NCBI GenBank assembly: GCA_026003755.1
Contig: BPHV01000001.1
Coordinates: 124,001 to 188,000 of the forward strand
Source of the DNA: Candidatus Roseilinea sp.
Lineage (GTDB): Bacteria > Chloroflexota > Anaerolineae > J036 > Brachytrichaceae
DNA length: 64,000 bases
Direction of reading: 5' to 3'
Every line of letters starts with the position of its first letter. Within the stretch, counting starts at the first letter, position 1. A model generated the notes under the pieces. That model was not told where the DNA came from. It worked only from the letters and a program-made list of their open reading frames with translations, and searched no databases. This document shows positions 2,519-57,354 of this stretch, piece by piece. The position numbers and the translations under genes were made by a program.

Positions 2519-3367
2519 TTACTTGATCGCGCCGCGCGTCAGTCCACTCACAATCAGCTTTTGGAAGAGTAGGACCACGACGAGTATCGGCACGATCATC
2601 ACTACACTCATGGCGCTCAGGAGATCCCATGGCCGCCCGCCTCCGGCTGTAGGTTGTACCGCAAGCTCGACCAGGCCGACGCTGAGCGTTTTGTTCGACC
2701 CACTGGTAGCGAACACCAGCGGGTAGATCAGCTCATTCCAGGCGATGATGAAGTTGATGATGAACATCGTGACAAGTGCCGGGCGCATGATCGGCAACGT
2801 GATGAACCAGAAGAGTTGGGGCAAACGCGCGCCGTCCATGATCGCCGCTTCTTCGATCTCGTAAGGGATTTGGCGCAGAAAAGGAACCAGAATCCAAATT
2901 GTGAACGGGAGGACGAGGGACGACATTAGGATGACCAATCCGTGATAGGTATTGATCAAACCGGTGCTCTTGAACAACTCGAACAAAGGCACGAGTCCGC
3001 CGATCTGGGGTAGCGCAATTGACATGACGAAGACGATAAAGATGAGGTTCGCGCCGCGGAATTGGATGCGGGCCAGCGCATAGCTGGCGAGAAAGGCCGC
3101 CGCAACTGAGACCAGGCTTGAGCCTGCAGCGAATAACAGTGAATTAACGAAGTAGCGAGCAAGTGGAATGCTGTTAGCGAGTACTTGGTAGTTCTCGAGG
3201 GTAAAGGTGCTGAACCAGTAGCGCGGCGGGATAGTGAACAGCTCGTACTTCGGCGTGAACGATGACAGCACGATCCAGTAGAACGGGAAGAGCACGATAA
3301 ACAGGAAGATGAAAACCGCGATTGCCAGCAGTGCGCCGTCGGCCACGCGTGCTAAACGCATGTTCAC
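2519..3367 (-). CDS. CUT1 sugar ABC transporter permease, MalG type
   Basis: A 282-residue inner-membrane protein with about six hydrophobic segments. It carries the EAA loop of binding-protein-dependent permeases (EEAAIMDGARLPQLFWFITLP), where the ATPase docks. The N-terminal FIVLFPFYWIVLSSF segment and the length are typical of MalG/LacG-like subunits. Its ATG overlaps the end of the MalF-type gene by 4 bp, so the two are translationally coupled. No ATPase gene is in the operon, so a shared MsiK-like ATPase encoded elsewhere probably energises it. Confidence 0.92.
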   Translation of the reverse strand: MNMRLARVADGALLAIAVFIFLFIVLFPFYWIVLSSFTPKYELFTIPPRYWFSTFTLENYQVLANSIPLARYFVNSLLFAAGSSLVSVAAAFLASYALARIQFRGANLIFIVFVMSIALPQIGGLVPLFELFKSTGLINTYHGLVILMSSLVLPFTIWILVPFLRQIPYEIEEAAIMDGARLPQLFWFITLPIMRPALVTMFIINFIIAWNELIYPLVFATSGSNKTLSVGLVELAVQPTAGGGRPWDLLSAMSVVMIVPILVVVLLFQKLIVSGLTRGAIK

Positions 3368-4302
3368 AGCGATACCTCCACTTTACGAAACAGTAACAAG
3401 CCGATAATGCTGGCGATGCCGACGACGATGAACAGCACCATGCTGATCGCTGAGGCATAGCCGAAGTTGAGTGCGGTGAACGCGACTTGGTAAATGCGAT
3501 AGGCGAGCAACTGAGTTGCGAATCCCGGCCCGCCGCCCGTCATAGCGAAGACCAGGTCGAATGCAGCCAGCTGCCAAACTACCATAAACAGGCCGATGGT
3601 GACGATCTGCGGCATGATCAACGGCAGCGTGATGTAGAAGAACGCGGAGACGCGGTTCGTGCCATCCACCCTGCCGGCTTCATATAGGTCTTGCGGCACG
3701 CCTTGTAGGGCGGCTAAAAGTACCAGCCCAACGAACGGTGTGGATTTCCAGACATTCGTAGCGATGACTGCCGCACGCGCTCCCCAAAAATCCACCAGCC
3801 AGGGCACTTTCACCCCAATTGTTCGATAGAGCAAGTCGTTGATGACGCCGTACTGTGTGTCATACATCCACCGGAAGCCGATCGCAGCAACAACCATCGG
3901 GATAGCCCAAGGGATGAGGTTGATCGCTCGCACGACGCCGCGTCCGAAGAACGCGCGGTGCAGAATGAGCGCAATCGCCATTCCTAGCACAATCTCCAGT
4001 AGTGTCGAGATCGTGACAAATAGCACGGTAAAGCTGATGCTGCTGGTGACGGCGATGTCCCGCATCAAAGCCTGGAAGTTCTTTAGACCGGCGAACTGCT
4101 GAGGGGGAAAGGCGGGATTCCAGTCGTGGAAGCTCAGCCAGATCGTGTTGAAGAAGGGATAGACCGCAGTGAATAGGCGCAGCGCGACCGAGGGTAGCAG
4201 GAGTAGGCAGATGAGGATTGCGATGCGCCTTGTACGTTGCGTCAGGCGAAACCGCGCAGTTCGCGCGGGTATGGGCGCAAAAGTCGTGGGCGATTGTGTC
4301 AT
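3364..4302 (-). CDS. CUT1 sugar ABC transporter permease, MalF type
   Basis: A 312-residue membrane protein with six predicted helices. It has the EAA-type loop (YEAGRVDGTNRVSAFFYITLP) and the MTGGGPG motif near the C-terminus that marks MalF/UgpA-like subunits. The cytoplasmic N-terminus (about 30 residues, Arg-rich) precedes the first helix. It pairs with the downstream MalG-type protein, whose start overlaps its stop. A strong hairpin separates it from the binding-protein gene, which may lower its expression relative to that gene. Confidence 0.92.
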   Translation of the reverse strand: MTQSPTTFAPIPARTARFRLTQRTRRIAILICLLLLPSVALRLFTAVYPFFNTIWLSFHDWNPAFPPQQFAGLKNFQALMRDIAVTSSISFTVLFVTISTLLEIVLGMAIALILHRAFFGRGVVRAINLIPWAIPMVVAAIGFRWMYDTQYGVINDLLYRTIGVKVPWLVDFWGARAAVIATNVWKSTPFVGLVLLAALQGVPQDLYEAGRVDGTNRVSAFFYITLPLIMPQIVTIGLFMVVWQLAAFDLVFAMTGGGPGFATQLLAYRIYQVAFTALNFGYASAISMVLFIVVGIASIIGLLLFRKVEVSL

Positions 4303-4317
4303 TGAGATACGGGGGGA

Positions 4318-4350
4318 GGCGTCGAGACCTACAAGTGCAGGCTCGACGCC
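4318..4350 (-). promoter_or_regulatory. Intergenic hairpin after the binding-protein gene
   Basis: Arms GGCGTCGAG and CTCGACGCC (4318-4326 and 4342-4350) pair perfectly, and the loop can extend the stem by three more pairs around one bulge. There is no T-tract, so it is more likely an mRNA-stabilising or partial-attenuation element than a full terminator. It lies between the substrate-binding gene and the permease genes. Confidence 0.6.
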
Positions 4351-4371
4351 CCAGTATCGCGAAAGGAGACG

Positions 4372-5700
4372 CTAACCCAACGCCGCAATGCGTTCCTTGC
4401 CCTGCTTCATGGCTTCGGCCAGCGATATTTGCTTTGTGAGATACAGCGAAGCCATGTCGTCCACAACCGATTGAGCTTCGGCAACCTTGGGATGGAAAGG
4501 ACGCGGTGCAGGAACGTTGGCCTCGGCATATCGCTGCATGTAGACGGCCAGCCCTTCGTTGCCCATGACGGCCATGATGGACTTGCGAGGCATGACGAAC
4601 CAGCTTTGTCCCTTGGCGAGGATCGGCGCGTTCTCGTTGTTGGTAATGAAGGCTATCAAGTCAAGCGCCTCGGCTTTGTTTGGCGCAAACTTGGGCACAG
4701 AGAAGCCCCATCCGCCCCACCATGACTTGGCACCGGCGGGGCCGGCAGGCGGCAGGGTAATCTCAGCTCTGCCCTCCTGATACCAGTTCTTATTTCCACG
4801 TGCTACATCCCAGAAGAACGGCCACTGGCGCATGAAGGCGACGTGATCCTTCATGTATTCCTCATTTTGCTGCGTGTAGTCCATCGAAAGTGTGGTTTCC
4901 GGCATGATCTTGTGGGTGTGGATGAGATCGTAGGCGAATTGGAAGGCTTGTGCTGTCGCGTCGTCGAATTCGAAGACATTGCCCCCACTTTGGGCAGCCA
5001 GATAGGCCATATAAACGAATGCCAGCGCGGGCTTGATCAACGCCTCCATCGTGCCGAAGACCGGTGGATTGGTGAATTCCTTGCCGATCGCTATCACTTC
5101 GTCCCAGGTCTTGGGTGGTTCGATCTTCCTCTCGTCGAACCAGTCCTTTCGGTAGAAGGTGTATCCGATGGCGAACTCGTGGGGGACACGATAGCGCTTG
5201 CCGTTGAAGCTGTGCCACACTTCGATCTGTTGCTTGAATGACTCTGGAAAGTCGTCCCACGTTTCTTGAGGGATTACCTCGTCGAGCGGCTCCATCCAGC
5301 CGGCGCGATAGAATGATGGGCCGGAGTCATCTGCATCACTCATCACGTCCACCGGGCTGACGCCGGATTGGAATGCCGGCGTGTACTTGGTGATCATCTC
5401 GTTGCCGCTTACCGGCCCGCTTTCGAGGGTGACCTTGTGGCCGGTCATTTCTTCCCACTTAGCGAGGACGGGCTTCATTGCATCGTGGGCGAATCCCTGA
5501 ATTGCGAGCACCAGGGTTTTGCTCACCGTACCGGTGGCCGGAGCTTGGGTCGGCGATGGCTCTGCGGGTTGTTGAGGCGCACGCGCAGGCGGCGCGGCAC
5601 ATGCGCTCAGTCCGACGCCCATGCCTAAACCACCTGCTGCTAGTCCGGCGGCCTTAAGAAATTTTCGCCTTGAAATTCGGGTCACGGGTTTGTCTTTCAC
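4372..5700 (-). CDS. CUT1 sugar-binding lipoprotein (ABC transporter substrate-binding protein)
   Basis: A 442-residue extracellular sugar-binding protein. The N-terminus shows a twin-arginine-like stretch (RISRRKFLK), a hydrophobic helix and a lipobox ending in SAC, followed by a Pro/Ala linker, so it is exported, probably lipidated and tethered. The body resembles MalE/UgpB-family solute-binding proteins. The start is taken as GTG at 5700, because AGGAGG sits 6 nt upstream; a TTG seven codons further upstream would lie before this Shine-Dalgarno. It is the second gene after the LacI regulator and feeds the two downstream permeases. Confidence 0.9.
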   Translation of the reverse strand: MKDKPVTRISRRKFLKAAGLAAGGLGMGVGLSACAAPPARAPQQPAEPSPTQAPATGTVSKTLVLAIQGFAHDAMKPVLAKWEEMTGHKVTLESGPVSGNEMITKYTPAFQSGVSPVDVMSDADDSGPSFYRAGWMEPLDEVIPQETWDDFPESFKQQIEVWHSFNGKRYRVPHEFAIGYTFYRKDWFDERKIEPPKTWDEVIAIGKEFTNPPVFGTMEALIKPALAFVYMAYLAAQSGGNVFEFDDATAQAFQFAYDLIHTHKIMPETTLSMDYTQQNEEYMKDHVAFMRQWPFFWDVARGNKNWYQEGRAEITLPPAGPAGAKSWWGGWGFSVPKFAPNKAEALDLIAFITNNENAPILAKGQSWFVMPRKSIMAVMGNEGLAVYMQRYAEANVPAPRPFHPKVAEAQSVVDDMASLYLTKQISLAEAMKQGKERIAALG

Positions 5701-5779
5701 TTTTTGCCTCCTGGCTTCCAAAAAGTTAAGTTTTGTGGCGGAAATACCGCCGCTAAAACTGCTTGAACCGGCGCGATTG

Positions 5780-6781
5780 CTAAGTGATTGCCCGACAGCT
5801 CTCGCGAATGACCAGTCGGGTGGGTAGAACGACGCGGAGTGGTTCGGTGCGCCCGGCGTTGATGCGTTCGATCAAGAGTGACACGCTCACACGCGCAAAG
5901 TCCGCTTTGGGCGGCGCGATCGTGGTTAACGGTGGACACGTCATCGCTGCGATAGGTATGTCGTCAAACCCAACGATTGAAATGTCACCCGGAACACGCT
6001 TTCCCACTCGCCACAGATGATTCATCGCACCGATCGCCATCCGATCGTTTGTCGCAAATACGGCGCTGAGATCCGGGCAGCGTTGCAACAGCTCGGCCAT
6101 GACCTGCCTGCCGCTTTCGTAGGTGAAGTCGCCTCGGATGACGAGCTCCGAAGGAAGAGGGATGCCGGCCTCCTGCAGGGCCCTGCGCAACCCCACGATC
6201 CGATCTGCGCTCGGCGTTTCTTCGCGTGGTCCGGCGATGCACCCAATCTGCCGATGCCCCAGTTCGATCAAGTAGCGACCAACTAGGTAGCCGCCTTGCT
6301 CGTTATCGGTCACCACTTGGTCAATCGGCAGGTCGCTTAACTCGCGTGCGACTGTGACCACCGGGATGCCGGACCGGGCAATAGAGCTGAACTTCTCCCG
6401 TCGGTTGGCAGCTGAGATCAGGATGATGCCGTCTACACGTTTGGAAAGCAATGCTTCAATGTAAGCAGTCTCCTTTGCCTCCGACATATCGGAATTGCAC
6501 AAGATCACACTGTATCCCCTATCAAAGCCAGCATCTTCGACCGCCCGAGCAAGTTCTGCAAAATAGGGATTGGAATTGTCTGGCACGATCAAGCCGATCG
6601 TGCGCGTTTCGCCGCGCCTCAGACTGCGGGCCAGCGTGTTAGGCCGATAGCCAAGCTCAGTGATCGCCTCGGTGACTCGCTGCCGCGTGATCGGGTCAAC
6701 ATAACGAGTTCGGTTGATCACATGTGACACGGTGGTTACGGAGACTTTGGCGAGGTCCGCAACATCTTTTATGGTTACCAT
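5780..6781 (-). CDS. LacI-family transcriptional regulator
   Basis: A 333-residue repressor-type protein. Residues 1-55 form the LacI helix-turn-helix and hinge (MVTIKDVADLAKVSVTTVSH, then RQRVTEAITELGYRPN). The rest is a periplasmic-binding-protein-like ligand domain (TIGLIVPDNSNPYFAEL, VFATNDRMAIGAM, ISIVGFDDIP). ATG at 6781 is chosen because the HTH starts immediately there; the open frame runs 45 codons further upstream but crosses the promoter. It is the first gene of the sugar operon and probably represses itself and the transporter/glycosidase genes until the sugar binds. Confidence 0.95.
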   Translation of the reverse strand: MVTIKDVADLAKVSVTTVSHVINRTRYVDPITRQRVTEAITELGYRPNTLARSLRRGETRTIGLIVPDNSNPYFAELARAVEDAGFDRGYSVILCNSDMSEAKETAYIEALLSKRVDGIILISAANRREKFSSIARSGIPVVTVARELSDLPIDQVVTDNEQGGYLVGRYLIELGHRQIGCIAGPREETPSADRIVGLRRALQEAGIPLPSELVIRGDFTYESGRQVMAELLQRCPDLSAVFATNDRMAIGAMNHLWRVGKRVPGDISIVGFDDIPIAAMTCPPLTTIAPPKADFARVSVSLLIERINAGRTEPLRVVLPTRLVIRESCRAIT

Positions 6782-6800
6782 TTCATGAGCAATGCTTTGC

Positions 6801-6812
6801 GCAAACGATTGC
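6801..6812. promoter_or_regulatory. LacI-type operator at the transcription start
   Basis: GCAAACGATTGC is a near-perfect palindrome around a central CG, mismatched only at the A/A pair flanking it. This is the layout of LacI-family operators. It lies 7-18 bp past the -10 box of the regulator's promoter, where bound repressor would block initiation or early elongation. Confidence 0.65.
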
Positions 6813-6818
6813 TCGCAT

Positions 6819-6846
6819 ATTCTATGAGAATCGCGTCGCCTGTCAA
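6819..6846 (-). promoter_or_regulatory. Sigma-70-type promoter of the lacI-sugar operon
   Basis: On the minus strand TTGACA (6841-6846) and TAGAAT (6819-6824) are separated by 16 bp. The -35 is a perfect consensus and the -10 matches at five of six. It sits about 40 bp before the regulator's ATG and is flanked by two palindromes. Confidence 0.7.
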
Positions 6847-6848
6847 TT

Positions 6849-6860
6849 CGTTTACAAACG
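6849..6860. promoter_or_regulatory. Second operator-like palindrome upstream of -35
   Basis: CGTTTACAAACG has perfect 5-bp arms around a central AC. It lies 2 bp upstream of the -35 box of the lacI promoter. Its centre is about 48 bp from the downstream operator centre, so DNA looping between two repressor dimers is possible. Assignment to the same regulator is inference, because the central two bases differ from the CG-centred site. Confidence 0.45.
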
Positions 6861-6889
6861 GCGGGGTGTCTCTTTGAATGTAGGCGAGT

Positions 6890-7525
6890 TTGAACAAATG
6901 CCTCCCCGAGGGGCACAAGGCGGTATCTAGGCCGGTTGCACTAACGACAACCCCATCGCCCGCTCAGGTCCCGCCACGCGCTTTACCCCCGCGCATCCTC
7001 ACCAGGCGCTGCCGAGCCGGGCGCGACGATGTCGTCGTGCTGGCTTTACCTCGTGGCGGTGTACCGGTCGCCTACGAGATTGCAAGCGCGCCGAGAGTGC
7101 CGATGGATGTTTTCATCGTGCGCAAGTTAGTCGTGCCGGGCGAAGAGGAGCTGGCGATGGGTGCAATCGCTTTAGGTGGTATGCGCGTGCTCTCGCGTGA
7201 GCTGGGGGTAGAGCACCACGTGGGCATCACGGCCAGCGTGGACACCTTCTACGAGGGCCAGGAGCGCACCGGCTCGGCCAATCCGAATCTGCTGCGCGCC
7301 TTACGCGGCATCACCGAGGAGTATCGTCGCCTGAATGTGCTGAACTACGAGACGGAGAGCGGCACGCTGTTCAAGATGGGCGGCGTGTATAGCTTCGCCG
7401 CGGGTTGCATGTGCGGCGTGATCGCCCAGCGCACCGAGGCCGAGCGCGTTGTGTTGGAGGCCAAAGCGATCGCCGTCGAGAACGCGATCCGGGTGGCAGT
7501 GGAGGCGGCGATGCGGTTAGCCTGA
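6890..7525 (+). pseudogene. Chimeric relic: phosphoribosyltransferase N-part fused to uridine phosphorylase C-part
   Basis: The frame is open for 211 codons (TTG start) but joins pieces of two families. Residues about 45-105 match the N-terminal half of the intact phosphoribosyltransferase at 11413-12111 ([17 protein letters not shown], then [15 protein letters not shown]). It lacks the second half with the PRPP loop. From residue 106 (near 7205) it switches to the C-terminal third of a uridine-phosphorylase-like protein ([29 protein letters not shown]). The N-terminal 400 or more bases of the latter are missing. Neither enzyme could be functional alone. It is most simply the product of a deletion fusing two genes; whether the ORF is expressed is unknown. 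Confidence 0.75.
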
Positions 7526-7557: not shown

Positions 7558-8370
7558 TCAGATAATTGCCTTGCGCACCCGCGCCGAGATCGCCTCGCTG
7601 ATCAGCACCAGCACGAAGATCAAGACGAAGATCATCCCCACGCGGTCCCAGCGCAGCAGGTCCACCGAAGCGTTCAAGTTGAGGCCGATGCCGCCGGCGC
7701 CCACCAGCCCGAGCACCGTCGCTTCGCGGATGTTGATGTCCCAGCGGAAGATGCTGATGCCGGCGAAGCTCGGCAGCACCTGCGGCAGGTAGGCGTAGTC
7801 CAGAACTTGCAAGCGGTTCGCGCCGGTGGCGGTGATCGCCTCAATAGGCTCATAGCTTGTCTCCTCGATGGACTCGTAGGCCAGCTTGCCGATGAAGCCG
7901 ATCGAGCGCAGCGCGATGGCCAGGATGCCCGCCAGCACGCCCGGGCCGGTGATCGCTACCAGGATTAAGGCCCAAATCAGCGAATTGACCGAACGCGAGA
8001 TGACGATGATCAGCAAGGCGACATAGCGCAGGATAGGGTGGGGCGTGGTGTTGCGCGCCGCCACAAAGCTCAGCGGTAGGGCGATGCTCACCGCAAGCAG
8101 CGTGCCCAGCGTCGCGATGGTGATCGTGTCCCACAGCGGTTTCCAGAGCTGTTCGGCGTATGCCCAATCGGGCGGGAACATGCGCTGGAGAAACGCGCTG
8201 AGTTGCTGCGAAGCATCGGCGACGAACTCCCAGCGGGTGTTATTAGAGATCAACTGCCAGCACAGAAGCGTAATCGCTGTGCCCGTGATCCACCCCATCC
8301 ATATCTTCAGGCGCGTGGCCTTGTCGTAGCGTTGCCAAACTTTGGTGTTGTTTACAACGGTAACCGGCAT
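7558..8370 (-). CDS. phnE: Phosphonate/phosphite-type ABC transporter permease (second PhnE)
   Basis: A 270-residue inner-membrane permease. One N-terminal helix (residues 25-45) is followed by a periplasmic stretch and the MetI-like core with LWDTITIATLGTLLA. The PhnE signature region WDINIREATVLGLVGAGGIG lies near the C-terminus. It is the last gene of the phnD-phnC-phnE-phnE operon, 19 bp after the other permease, and the two probably form a heterodimer. Substrate could be phosphonate, phosphite or another phosphate analogue; no C-P lyase genes are nearby to decide. Confidence 0.9.
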   Translation of the reverse strand: MPVTVVNNTKVWQRYDKATRLKIWMGWITGTAITLLCWQLISNNTRWEFVADASQQLSAFLQRMFPPDWAYAEQLWKPLWDTITIATLGTLLAVSIALPLSFVAARNTTPHPILRYVALLIIVISRSVNSLIWALILVAITGPGVLAGILAIALRSIGFIGKLAYESIEETSYEPIEAITATGANRLQVLDYAYLPQVLPSFAGISIFRWDINIREATVLGLVGAGGIGLNLNASVDLLRWDRVGMIFVLIFVLVLISEAISARVRKAII

Positions 8371-8389
8371 GGATGTTCCTCAAAGGGGG

Positions 8390-9205
8390 CTATTGCAGCC
8401 TGCGGCGGATTTGGCCGGAGACCAGCTCCGTGGTCATTACCAGCGCGATGATGATGAACAGGATCGCGGCGGAGACGTCGTAATCGTAGCGGTTGAACGT
8501 GGTCTGCAGGGTCGAGCCGATGCCGCCCGCGCCGACGATGCCGACAATCGCTGATTCGCGCAGGTTGATGTCGAAACGATAAACGCTCAGTCCCACCAAG
8601 CGCGCGCTCACCTGGGGCATGACGGCGTAAGTGACCGTTTTCAGCCAGCCGGCGCCGGTCGCGCGGAGCGCCTCCAGCGGCGCCGGGTCAATTTCTTCGA
8701 TGTCTTCGGCCAACAGCTTGGCCATGAAGCCGATCGTGGCGAAGGCCAGCGTGCACACGCCTGCCAGCGGCCCAAAGCCAAACATCACCACGAAGGCGAT
8801 GGCAATCACGACCTCTTGAAAGGTGCGCGAGATGGTGATGATGCTGCGGCAGGCCAAATAGATCGGCGCCGGCGCGAGGTTGCGCGCCGCGCCGAGGCCG
8901 ACCGGCACCGACAGCAGCACGCCGGCCACGGTCGAAACGACGGTCATAGTCAGGCTCTCCAGCACGCCGATTTGAATGTCGTACCAGCGGGAGGCGAAAT
9001 CGGGTTGCAGGAAGCCTAAGAGTATCCGTCCGCCGCGCTCTAGGCCGCGCGCAATACGCGCGCCGTCCACCGGCACCGAGCTGATGGCCACCGCTAGGTA
9101 GGCCAACGTCCCGATGAGCAGCCCCCAACGCAGCCAGGGGTTGCGGATTAGCGGCGGCTTGCGCCAACGGCGGGAAGTGACGGACGAAGCAGTAAGCTCA
9201 GCCAT
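8390..9205 (-). CDS. phnE: Phosphonate/phosphite-type ABC transporter permease (first PhnE)
   Basis: A 271-residue membrane protein of the PhnE family. Landmarks are ESLTMTVVSTVAGVLLSVP, RTFQEVVIAI and the conserved RFDINLRESAIVGIVGAGGIG. An N-terminal helix at about residues 27-47 precedes a periplasmic segment. It begins 14 bp after the ATPase gene. Together with the following paralogous permease it should form the membrane channel of the importer. Confidence 0.92.
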   Translation of the reverse strand: MAELTASSVTSRRWRKPPLIRNPWLRWGLLIGTLAYLAVAISSVPVDGARIARGLERGGRILLGFLQPDFASRWYDIQIGVLESLTMTVVSTVAGVLLSVPVGLGAARNLAPAPIYLACRSIITISRTFQEVVIAIAFVVMFGFGPLAGVCTLAFATIGFMAKLLAEDIEEIDPAPLEALRATGAGWLKTVTYAVMPQVSARLVGLSVYRFDINLRESAIVGIVGAGGIGSTLQTTFNRYDYDVSAAILFIIIALVMTTELVSGQIRRRLQ

Positions 9206-53425: not shown

Positions 53426-55585
53426 TCATCCTTTCACGCTGCCCGCCGTCAACCCTTCCACTAGGAAGCGCTGGGCGAAGATGTAGAAGCCGACCACCGG
53501 GATGGACATGATGAGCGAGGCGGCCATCAATTGACCGTATGGATACAGGTCGGCGAAGACCAGCTTCTGCAAACCGACCGGCAGCGTGATCAGCTTCTCG
53601 CTGGTCAGGAAGATGAAGGCATACAGGAACTCGTTCCACGCGTTGGTGAAGGCAATCAGCGTGACGGCGAGCAGCGCCGGCGCCGCCAGCGGCAGCGTGA
53701 TGCGCCAGAACGCGCCGAAGCGGTTCGCCCCGTCAATCATGGCTGCCTCTTCCAGATCCTCAGGGATCGAGCGGTAATAGCCCATCATCACCCATGTTGC
53801 GAATGGCATCAGGAAGGTGGGATAGGTCAGGATTAACGCCATGTGCGTGTTGATCGCGCCTAGACTGGTCAAGATGCGATACATGGGGATGAACATCAGC
53901 GAGCCAGGCAGCAGATAGGTGATCAACAGCACGGTGGTCAGTGCGCCGGCGCTGCGGAACTTCAACCGCGCCAGCGCGTAGCCGCCTAGGGCAGCGAAGA
54001 ACACCGAGAGCGCCGTCGTGATGAGCGCGATCGTGACCGTGTTGCGGAACCAGAGCACATACTGCGTCTTGTTCAAGAGAGTATCGAACTGGGTCAGCAC
54101 CCAAGGGTCGGGCCAGAAGAGCGAGGCGCGCTGCTGGATCTGCAGATCGCCCTTGAACGCGGTGATGATGACGAAGTAGAACGGAAACAGGACGAAGAAC
54201 AGGAACGGCGAGAGCATGAGCAGCCGAAATGCGACGCCGAGCCGCGCGCGCATCGCCGACGATAGGTTGCGATCGGCCAGCAGACTCAGCCCATGCCCTG
54301 CGATGCCGATCACGACAGCCGCGGCCACGGCTGCCAGCACGCGCACCATCCCATCCACCGGATCGCCGCTGCTGAGCGCGGCGAGGATGATGAGCGGCGT
54401 CACGCCGGCAAGGATCAGCCACGGTGCTGCGCGCGTGGAGAGAAAGGCCGCAAATCGGCCGAACGCAAACAGCACGGCACAGATTACGGCGGTGATCAGG
54501 CCGCAAATCAGCAGGCCGACGATCCCGACGGTGCTCAGCGTCGCTGCGGCAGCGACGACGATGGCCGCGCCGGCGATCGCCCAGGGCAGGGCACGGCCCG
54601 CTGCTTTCAGCCAGGGTTTGCTGGTCTCGCGCGGCGCGCTGCGATCCACGCCCTGGCGCATAAAGCGGGCCAGCAAGAAGATAAAAATAGCGAGAAACGG
54701 CGCAGTCATCAGCGACACGGCTGCACCCGGACCGAAGCGGTTTTGCAGCAGCGCTCGCTCATAGGCTAGGATGGAATATACGCGCGTCTCGCCGCCTGGG
54801 CCGCCGCCGGTCATCAGGTAGATCAGGCCGAAGGTGTTGAACGTGCTGATGGTCGAGAGCAGCACCGTCACGGCGATCACGTAGCGCAGGCTGGGCAGCG
54901 TGATGTTGAAGAAGCGCTGTATGCCGTTGGCCCCATCCACTTCTGAGGCCTCGTATAGCTCTTTGTCAATCGCCTTGAGGCCGGCGAGCAGCAGCATGGT
55001 GAAGAACGGGATGCCCTTCCAAATGTTGACCGCGATCACGCTGGCTAGTGCTAGGCCGGGTTCGGACAACCATCCCACGTCGCGATTGATGATGCCCAGG
55101 CCTCTGAGCAGCGGGTTCAGTGTGCCGAATAGGGGATCGAAGATGCCGCGCCAGGTCAGCGCTGTGACTACTTCCGGCACAATCCAGGGCAGGAGCATGA
55201 TGCCGGCGAGCACGTTGCGCAGCGGTAACTTGCTGTTCAACAGCGAGGCGATGGCCAGACCAACAACGAGCTTGGCCGCTACCGAAATTACCGTGAAGCG
55301 GATTGTGTTACTGATCGAGCCGGTGAACTGGGTGTCGGTCAGCAAGCGCCGGTAGTTCTCCAGCCCGACGAATACTTCCTGGCGGTTGATCGTGCGGACG
55401 AACATGCTCATGTAGACCGCGTTGAGGAATGGATACAGGATCAACCCCGCCATCAGGGTGACCATCGGCGCGACGAACAACACTGCGATCTTCCAGTCCT
55501 TACCCAGCCATCGCTCCAGCCGCTTATTCAGGCTGATCGCTTGAGATTGTGCCAGCCGGGTCGGTGCGGTCATCTGTTGAGCCAT
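53426..55585 (-). CDS. Fused CUT1 sugar ABC transporter permease (MalF-MalG in one protein)
   Basis: A 719-residue membrane protein. Residues 1-310 are a complete MalF-type permease (KIAVLFVAPMVTLMAGLILYP, EAA loop YEASEVDGANGIQRFFNITLP, MTGGGPGGE). Residues about 330-440 add four hydrophobic helices of unknown origin (AIAGAAIVVAAAATLSTVG, GIVGLLICGLITAVICAVLF). Residues 450-719 are a complete MalG-type permease (FFVLFPFYFVIITAF, EEAAMIDGANRFGAFWRITLP). The frame is continuous. It follows its binding-protein gene; no ATPase gene is present. The fusion would fix 1:1 stoichiometry. Confidence 0.9.
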   Translation of the reverse strand: MAQQMTAPTRLAQSQAISLNKRLERWLGKDWKIAVLFVAPMVTLMAGLILYPFLNAVYMSMFVRTINRQEVFVGLENYRRLLTDTQFTGSISNTIRFTVISVAAKLVVGLAIASLLNSKLPLRNVLAGIMLLPWIVPEVVTALTWRGIFDPLFGTLNPLLRGLGIINRDVGWLSEPGLALASVIAVNIWKGIPFFTMLLLAGLKAIDKELYEASEVDGANGIQRFFNITLPSLRYVIAVTVLLSTISTFNTFGLIYLMTGGGPGGETRVYSILAYERALLQNRFGPGAAVSLMTAPFLAIFIFLLARFMRQGVDRSAPRETSKPWLKAAGRALPWAIAGAAIVVAAAATLSTVGIVGLLICGLITAVICAVLFAFGRFAAFLSTRAAPWLILAGVTPLIILAALSSGDPVDGMVRVLAAVAAAVVIGIAGHGLSLLADRNLSSAMRARLGVAFRLLMLSPFLFFVLFPFYFVIITAFKGDLQIQQRASLFWPDPWVLTQFDTLLNKTQYVLWFRNTVTIALITTALSVFFAALGGYALARLKFRSAGALTTVLLITYLLPGSLMFIPMYRILTSLGAINTHMALILTYPTFLMPFATWVMMGYYRSIPEDLEEAAMIDGANRFGAFWRITLPLAAPALLAVTLIAFTNAWNEFLYAFIFLTSEKLITLPVGLQKLVFADLYPYGQLMAASLIMSIPVVGFYIFAQRFLVEGLTAGSVKG

Positions 55586-55607
55586 GTCTTCCTCCGCTCC
55601 TGGTCCG

Positions 55608-55664
55608 ACTCCCGACTCACCACTTCCCTCAGGAGTCGGAATGAGGGAGTGATAAGTCGGGAGT
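55608..55664 (-). promoter_or_regulatory. Hairpin between binding-protein and fused permease genes
   Basis: Outer arms ACTCCCGACT/AGTCGGGAGT (10 bp, perfect) and inner arms CACTTCCCTC/GAGGGAGTG (one bulge) form a long interrupted stem. It lies directly after the binding-protein stop. Its core resembles the hairpin after tuf at 44593-44646. Confidence 0.6.
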
Positions 55665-55678
55665 GGGGGTAGGATGCA

Positions 55679-57106
55679 CTAACTCTGCGGCAGGCCCTTC
55701 TCTTCGAAGATGGCGATGCCCTTCTCGGTGGCGTCCTTGACGGCCTCGGCAGCGGTCATCTTGCCGGTGATGACGTTGGCCATCATCTCGCTCAGGAAGC
55801 CGGTGGCGAACCAGGCGTCGGTCGCGGCGTTTGGCTGCGCCGGATACGAGAAGCCGGTGTAGTCGGTCGGATTGAACATGATCTCCTTGAGCGCCGGGAA
55901 GGCCGGCTCAAGCTTGAGCAGGTCGTCGGTCCAGTTGTTCTTGTAGGCCGGCATGAACAATCCGCCACCTAATCCCGACAGCGGCGTGAACCGCGCTGGG
56001 TCAATGAAGTGCAAAATGATTTGTTTGGCGACATCGCGGTTCTTGACCCCTTTGAAGATGGTGTACCACTGTGCGCCGCCGGTGCCGAGCTCGATTGAGC
56101 CGTCGTTGGTTAGCGGGAAGCGCACCACCGCCGTGTTCGGATAAACCGGGTTGTTGTCGCGCTTGGCCGCGGCATAGACGCTGAAGGCGTTCTGGGTCAT
56201 GGCGATCTTGCCGGCCAGATATGCCTCGTTGTTGCTCGGATCGGTCCAGCTCTCCACGCCGGGTGGCAGGATGGGCTTGTATTTCTCGTCGGTATAGATG
56301 GTAGCCAGCCACTCCACGCCGGCGATGGTCTCCGGCGAATTGAAGGTGATCTTGGTGCCGGTCTCGTCTACCGCGCGGCCGCCGAAGGCCTGGAACGCTG
56401 TCTGGATCAAGCCGTGGCCGTCACCGCTCCGGTTGACGGTCAGGCCCCAGCCATACATCTCCTTGGAAGGATCGGACATCTTAATGGCTGCATCGAGCCG
56501 ATCTTGCAGCTTTGGCAGTTGTTTGACGTCTACGCCGGCGGCTTCGGCGACGTCGCGTCGCACAAACCACGCGCCGGCAGTCGTGATGAATGGCACCGAC
56601 CACCACTTCTCGTCGAAGCGCGCATTGCGCGGCACGCTGGCCGGCACGATTTCGCCGTATTTGCCGACCAGTTCATCCACGATGTCTGTGACGTCCTCGA
56701 CGATGTCCGAGTCGTACATCACAGACACGCTGTTGCCATGATAAGCAAGGTCGGGCGGGTTGCCCGCGGCTACCGCTGCCTGCATCTTGGCCACAAAGTC
56801 GCCGAACAACTCGGGGTTGACCGTGGAGACATCGGGCGTGTAGCCCAGGCTGGCGATGAATTCCTCAGTCTGCTTCTTCAGCTCCTCTTCCAGCGCCTTG
56901 AAATATTCCTGGCGGTGCAGCACTTGAACGGTGCCGCCGGCCGGCGCTGCAGGCGCTTCAGTGGGCGCGGGGGCTTCGGTCACATTCGGCGCCGCTGGCT
57001 GAGCGGGAGCGGCCGGTGCGGCGCAGGCAGCGAGCGCTGTGCTGGCCCCGGCGATCGCGGACAGGCGAAGTAATTGGCGTCGGGTGAGCTTAGTCTCTTT
57101 CTTCAC
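55679..57106 (-). CDS. CUT1 sugar-binding lipoprotein
   Basis: A 475-residue exported sugar-binding protein with twin-Arg-like LTRRQLLRL, a hydrophobic helix and lipobox ALAAC. A Pro/Ala/Glu linker follows. The body is MalE/UgpB-like (YHGNSVSVMYDSDIVEDVTD, KIAMTQNAFSVYAAAKRDNN, FMPAYKNNWTDDL). GTG 57106 is chosen because AGGAGG lies 8 nt upstream. First gene of the operon with the fused permease. Confidence 0.92.
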   Translation of the reverse strand: MKKETKLTRRQLLRLSAIAGASTALAACAAPAAPAQPAAPNVTEAPAPTEAPAAPAGGTVQVLHRQEYFKALEEELKKQTEEFIASLGYTPDVSTVNPELFGDFVAKMQAAVAAGNPPDLAYHGNSVSVMYDSDIVEDVTDIVDELVGKYGEIVPASVPRNARFDEKWWSVPFITTAGAWFVRRDVAEAAGVDVKQLPKLQDRLDAAIKMSDPSKEMYGWGLTVNRSGDGHGLIQTAFQAFGGRAVDETGTKITFNSPETIAGVEWLATIYTDEKYKPILPPGVESWTDPSNNEAYLAGKIAMTQNAFSVYAAAKRDNNPVYPNTAVVRFPLTNDGSIELGTGGAQWYTIFKGVKNRDVAKQIILHFIDPARFTPLSGLGGGLFMPAYKNNWTDDLLKLEPAFPALKEIMFNPTDYTGFSYPAQPNAATDAWFATGFLSEMMANVITGKMTAAEAVKDATEKGIAIFEEKGLPQS

Positions 57107-57354
57107 TTTGATATCCTCCTGAAACTGGATTATGAGATTTGCGCTGTTTGAAAGTCTCGTCGTCGAGTGCATCTGCGTCTGGCGCTATCGCGCGCTGATG
57201 ACCCTGGTTAGGTCGAAATGCGATAGCTTCTCTATCTGGATATGCTCGGCGAGCTAAGATGAAGCGATCACCTCCTTATCGATCTGTGCGTGCGGCAGAC
57301 CTTTACGGATGACAGTAGTGTAGAAGGATAAGCCCGATCGCACAAATGGGCGTC
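57107..57354. other. Upstream region of the second CUT1 operon
   Basis: 248 bp without a gene, between the binding-protein start and the end of the methyltransferase gene, both on the minus strand. The operon promoter is expected here. I see no clear palindromic operator, and no regulator gene is adjacent. Confidence 0.4.

Follow-up and report, generated by a model that had tools for sequence, protein, structure and literature searches.

Importers of the CUT1 family are built around two membrane proteins with 6-8 helices each (TCDB survey, PMC3654945). An earlier note on a 64,000-nucleotide stretch of DNA from Candidatus Roseilinea sp. (here called the window) reported that one uninterrupted frame at 53426-55585 holds both permease domains, MalF-like and MalG-like, joined by a linker with additional hydrophobic helices. 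The locus thus raises three questions: whether the fusion is genuine, what kind of transporter it would serve, and what the added helices contribute.

A single frame for both permease halves

The frame occupies the coordinates reported, on the minus strand, running from an ATG at 55585, preceded by a strong ribosome-binding site (GGAGCGGAGGAAGAC-ATG), to a stop at 53426, a total of 719 codons; the plus strand of the same interval contains many stops. Pfam detects two BPD_transp_1 stretches in the 719-residue product (E 1.5e-32), and NCBIfam models align residues 71-263 to MalF and residues 445-719 to MalG, confirming that a single frame carries both permease domains. Based on these matches and on conserved alignment columns, the MalF/UgpA-type half comprises residues 1-310 (54656-55585, minus strand; BPD_transp_1 at 106-308) and the MalG/UgpE-type half residues 453-719 (53429-54229, minus strand). 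The EAA loops of both halves are intact, at about residues 209-231 (ELYEASEVDGANGIQRFFNITLP) and 608-632 (PEDLEEAAMIDGANRFGAFWRITLP), and their cores, EASEVDGA...LP and EEAAMIDGA...LP, vary little or not at all among 25 sequences.

The premise that CUT1 permeases are normally separate agrees with the published survey and with the source genome itself, where no second fused CUT1 permease was found and each of the other pairs inspected is encoded by two genes, among them a split pair elsewhere in the window (2519-3367 and 3364-4302) that serves as an internal control. The same regularity favours reading the fusion as a sequencing or assembly artefact, in which a stop or frameshift between two genes was missed. 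Against this, the search for orthologues that the earlier note proposed recovered full-length, stop-free frames of 719 codons in five further Candidatus Roseilinea genomes (L009-L013), 90-96% identical and with the same 142-residue linker; these come from several independent assemblies, and about 20 more distant genomes also encode a fused form. As no separating frameshift or stop was seen in any of the five, we reject the artefact, whose probability we regard as practically nil. Public copies of the long-linker gene include L038-L040 and L043. Contig ends interrupt the gene in one genome of the genus (G020), and two of the nine genus genomes, source genome counted (G018 and G024), gave no match at E 1e-60.

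A fused variant of the CUT1 type

Maltose transport is not indicated by the family names. Scores fall far below the NCBIfam maltose equivalog cut-offs for both MalF (138 vs 392 bits) and MalG (142 vs 261 bits), ruling out identity with maltose MalFG; taken with the sugar-acid enzymes encoded beside relatives (see below), these scores make 'MalF/MalG' a family resemblance only. Identity with PhnU2, a fused permease for 2-aminoethylphosphonate, was likewise ruled out (TIGR03262, 99.5 bits vs a cut-off of 593).

The solved structures nearest by sequence are headed by SugB, SugA, MalG, MalF and AlgM (AlgM1/AlgM2), and the predicted model of the permease matches SugA/SugB. With the corresponding CUT1 importers (LpqY-SugABC, MalFGK2 and AlgM1M2SS), its nearest solved relatives by both sequence and fold, the Roseilinea protein shares two BPD_transp_1 halves with EAA loops, a MalF-like half preceding a MalG-like half, and a binding protein encoded alongside; it differs in being one chain rather than two, in its 142-residue, four-helix linker and in an operon that lacks an ATPase gene. 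A single 719-residue frame departs from the definition of CUT1 systems by two separate membrane proteins with 6-8 helices each. We call the permease a fused variant of the CUT1 type, since the two-protein criterion describes organization, not homology.

Natural single-chain permeases with a twelve-helix core made of two fused halves are known in other subfamilies, among them FbpB/FutB (iron), PhnU2 and ThiP; FutB-type iron permeases have twelve helices in two six-helix repeats (PMC3654945). Thermus FbpB (9j4r) aligns with the permease model over 675 columns as one chain, although its resolved chain, at 490 residues, leaves no room for four linker helices of this kind. No fused CUT1 permease was found among open-access papers. 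Given the placement by fold and sequence, the single-chain precedent and the two intact EAA loops, we infer that the 719-residue protein would by itself form the entire pore of a type I importer.

Four predicted helices in the linker

Taken to start where the MalF half stops and to run up to the first helix of the MalG half, the linker comprises residues 311-452 (54230-54655, minus strand), 142 residues in all, slightly longer than the 110-130 estimated by the earlier note. The four extra helices described there are supported: a Kyte-Doolittle profile (19-residue window) contains four segments at 1.6 or above between the halves (residues 332-350, 355-373, 386-404 and 412-430). Combining hydropathy with loop charges, we place the predicted transmembrane helices, all encoded on the minus strand, at residues 332-350 (helix a, 54536-54592), 355-375 (helix b, 54461-54523), 387-404 (helix c, 54374-54427) and 414-436 (helix d, 54278-54346).

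Across six orthologues, the successive loops of the linker contain 6-7 (inside), 0 (outside), 2 (inside), 0 (outside) and 3-5 (inside) lysine and arginine residues, a pattern that fits the positive-inside rule for two predicted hairpins with both ends of the linker in the cytoplasm. In the CUT1 fold, the last helix of the MalF half exits into the cytoplasm, and the first helix of the MalG half enters from there. Any even number of added helices (zero, two or four) is therefore topology-neutral. The suggestion that the linker helices keep the topology correct did not survive this comparison: the flanking ends of both halves are cytoplasmic, and about 20 fused relatives lack helix hairpins, ruling out a requirement for these helices in topology. 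An AlphaFold2 prediction of the permease does form helices in the linker; pLDDT there is mostly below 50 (below 50 throughout residues 312-409), too low for their packing to be interpreted.

Fused relatives in other bacteria

Fused relatives occur in 15 of 251 genomes sampled across Chloroflexota, source genome counted (E 1e-150); no plasmid-borne copy was found at E 1e-80. Forms of about 630-690 residues with a short linker are present in other Chloroflexota, in Devosia, Rhodobacteraceae and Wenxinia, and in two metagenome bins with other labels. The named short-linker forms share the same fusion in the same order (49-73% overall identity), but their linker is only ∼70-77 residues long and has a single amphipathic, semi-hydrophobic segment, in contrast to the 142 residues and four helices of Roseilinea. 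Many short linkers carry a D-hydrophobic-LPFEW motif around the amphipathic segment, and a short linker was predicted, with modest confidence, to form a single 38-residue helix.

In a tree of both halves, with support values taken from newick bipartitions and split references restricted to those fetched for the analysis, fused sequences are separated from the sampled split pairs (support 100, branch 0.66), and long-linker sequences from all others (support 100, branch 0.16). With no fused form falling among the sampled split pairs, the fusion looks old and shared with other bacteria; since a short linker is found in each of the nearest relatives of the long-linker clade, the four-helix linker is most simply read as derived within a single clade of the hot-spring genus Roseilinea.

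Two of the relatives have unusual frames. In Devosia sp. 67-54 (L046:5539-7887), the frame of the fused permease stays open for ∼128 codons before its start, which is probably no more than a long open frame at high G+C. In the bin labelled Gracilibacteria (L049:1829-3806), the fused permease is split over two frames; both the label and the quality of this sequence are doubtful.

Constraint on the linker and its possible role

The linker is constrained, but about four times more loosely than the permease halves (dN/dS of 0.13-0.40 vs 0.03-0.08). No convincing Pfam family matches it (best E 0.037, below the cut-off), and no convincing homologue was found elsewhere in 28 genomes of the family, where a single marginal match (E 0.008, in G020) was the only trace; derivation from another protein of these genomes is not supported on this basis. 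Internal similarity between the two hairpins (RALPWAI.. and RAAPWLI..; alignment score 43 vs 32 ± 5.5 for shuffled sequences, p ∼0.05) weakly suggests that one may be a tandem duplicate of the other, an origin that this score does not establish.

These observations bear on whether the helices have a function of their own, such as docking a partner protein, helping the pore to withstand heat or controlling the ATPase. Such a function would fit their retention in every long-linker genome, the purifying selection (dN/dS at most 0.40) and the near invariance of helices a (ALPWAIAGAAIVVAA) and c (PWLILAGVTPLII); it sits poorly with the looser constraint relative to the halves, with relatives in the same family that are 72-73% identical and lack the four helices, and with the scarcity of related sequences, no family and no clear homologue elsewhere in the 28 genomes having been found. 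On balance we judge it unlikely. The boldest version of this idea takes the linker for a functional module that only Roseilinea has acquired and that, as a membrane scaffold between the two permease halves, alters coupling or brings in a partner. This appears to us quite improbable; to our knowledge, no inter-subunit module of this kind has been described in a CUT1 importer, and this would be the first.

Alternatively, the linker may be neutral, two hydrophobic hairpins having been gained by chance and tolerated because their helices are even in number. A genus-restricted, fast-evolving segment with no homologues is what this history would leave, but length is exactly 142 residues in all aligned long-linker forms and dN/dS is well below 1, features that upkeep of topology alone could nevertheless explain; we consider strict neutrality possible, if on the unlikely side. 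A mostly passive linker, the reading that we prefer, must itself be weighed against the maintained hydrophobicity and purifying selection, which would fit a specific role as well.

Operon context, ATPase and substrate

The permease gene is the second of a pair. Directly upstream, on the same strand and 93 bases away, lies a gene for a substrate-binding protein (SBP_bac_8; 55679-57172, minus strand) with a leader that resembles twin-arginine and lipoprotein signals (RRQLLRLS...LAAC), an arrangement also found in relatives (e.g. L038 and L041). The gap contains a strong predicted RNA hairpin (55598-55674, minus strand; -51.5 kcal/mol, z -4.9), and a hairpin was predicted at the same place in all six relatives checked (z -3.3 to -6.9), several of them with unrelated sequence, and hence in all seven genomes checked. 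In Escherichia coli, a structure in the malE-malF gap shields the malE segment of the transcript, yielding more binding protein than permease (PMC5927463); the natural inference is that the Roseilinea hairpin may be used in the same way. A scan for sigma-70-type promoters around the operon returned nothing.

The pair stands alone beside a gene resembling that for ribosomal protein L9, with neither a catabolic gene nor an ATPase gene beside it. MalK-like genes occur elsewhere in the genome, and their pairing with the permease is a candidate assignment only. The best candidate, C2:35634-36713, has no permease gene within about 5 kb (open frames inspected in the surrounding 10 kb); which ATPase serves the fused permease is a guess. 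ATPases shared among several sugar importers are documented (PMC7658222).

Genes neighbouring the permease in short-linker relatives encode, among others, galactonate/mannonate-dehydratase-like enolases, RraA-like aldolases, a UxuA-like protein and a UgpC-type ATPase. Drawn from relatives that are 50-65% identical, the sugar-acid enzymes among these neighbours point to sugar acids, or oligosaccharides containing them, as the putative substrates.

Proposed mechanism and significance

Probably, then, the Roseilinea gene encodes, in a single chain, the permease core of a CUT1-type importer that depends on a binding protein; the gene for its ATPase would lie elsewhere, and the added helices would be mostly passive. 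In the mechanism that we propose, this one chain would provide the whole membrane core of a type I ABC importer: the upstream lipoprotein-type binding protein would deliver its substrate, which may be a sugar but is more likely a sugar acid or an oligosaccharide, to a pseudo-symmetric pore formed by the two fused halves, and each half would engage, through its EAA loop, one molecule of a MalK/UgpC-type ATPase that also serves other importers. A single origin of the fusion is probable, predating the point at which the sampled Chloroflexota and alphaproteobacterial forms diverged or exchanged the gene, with an ancestral linker that would have been short and cytoplasmic and contained one predicted amphipathic helix. 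In one Roseilinea clade, this linker may have been replaced by, or expanded into, two transmembrane hairpins that leave the topology unchanged and would act mainly as a tether, fixing a 1:1 stoichiometry and holding the halves together.

Though uncommon, the fusion is spread broadly over the phylogeny and represents a variant of a known machine, not a new one; the four-helix linker is a genus-level elaboration of probably modest importance. The finding documents an apparently monophyletic single-chain branch of CUT1 permeases, present in at least two phyla and with two kinds of linker. As the fused chain locks both the stoichiometry and the order of the halves, it offers a handy scaffold for studying each half separately, through asymmetric mutants or single-molecule work, and the naturally short and long linkers lend themselves to a swap experiment on what an inter-subunit linker may contain.

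Other transport genes in the window

The split permease pair used above as a control belongs to an otherwise ordinary CUT1 system (2519-5721, minus strand), in which the permease genes overlap by four bases and the binding-protein gene lies upstream. Adjacent to it are a large gene resembling that for an alpha-mannosidase (16-2481) and one for a LacI-type regulator (5780-6916); all names in this region were given by eye. Two adjacent permease genes at 7558-9205 (minus strand), also classified by eye, resemble those for phosphonate permeases of the PhnE type.
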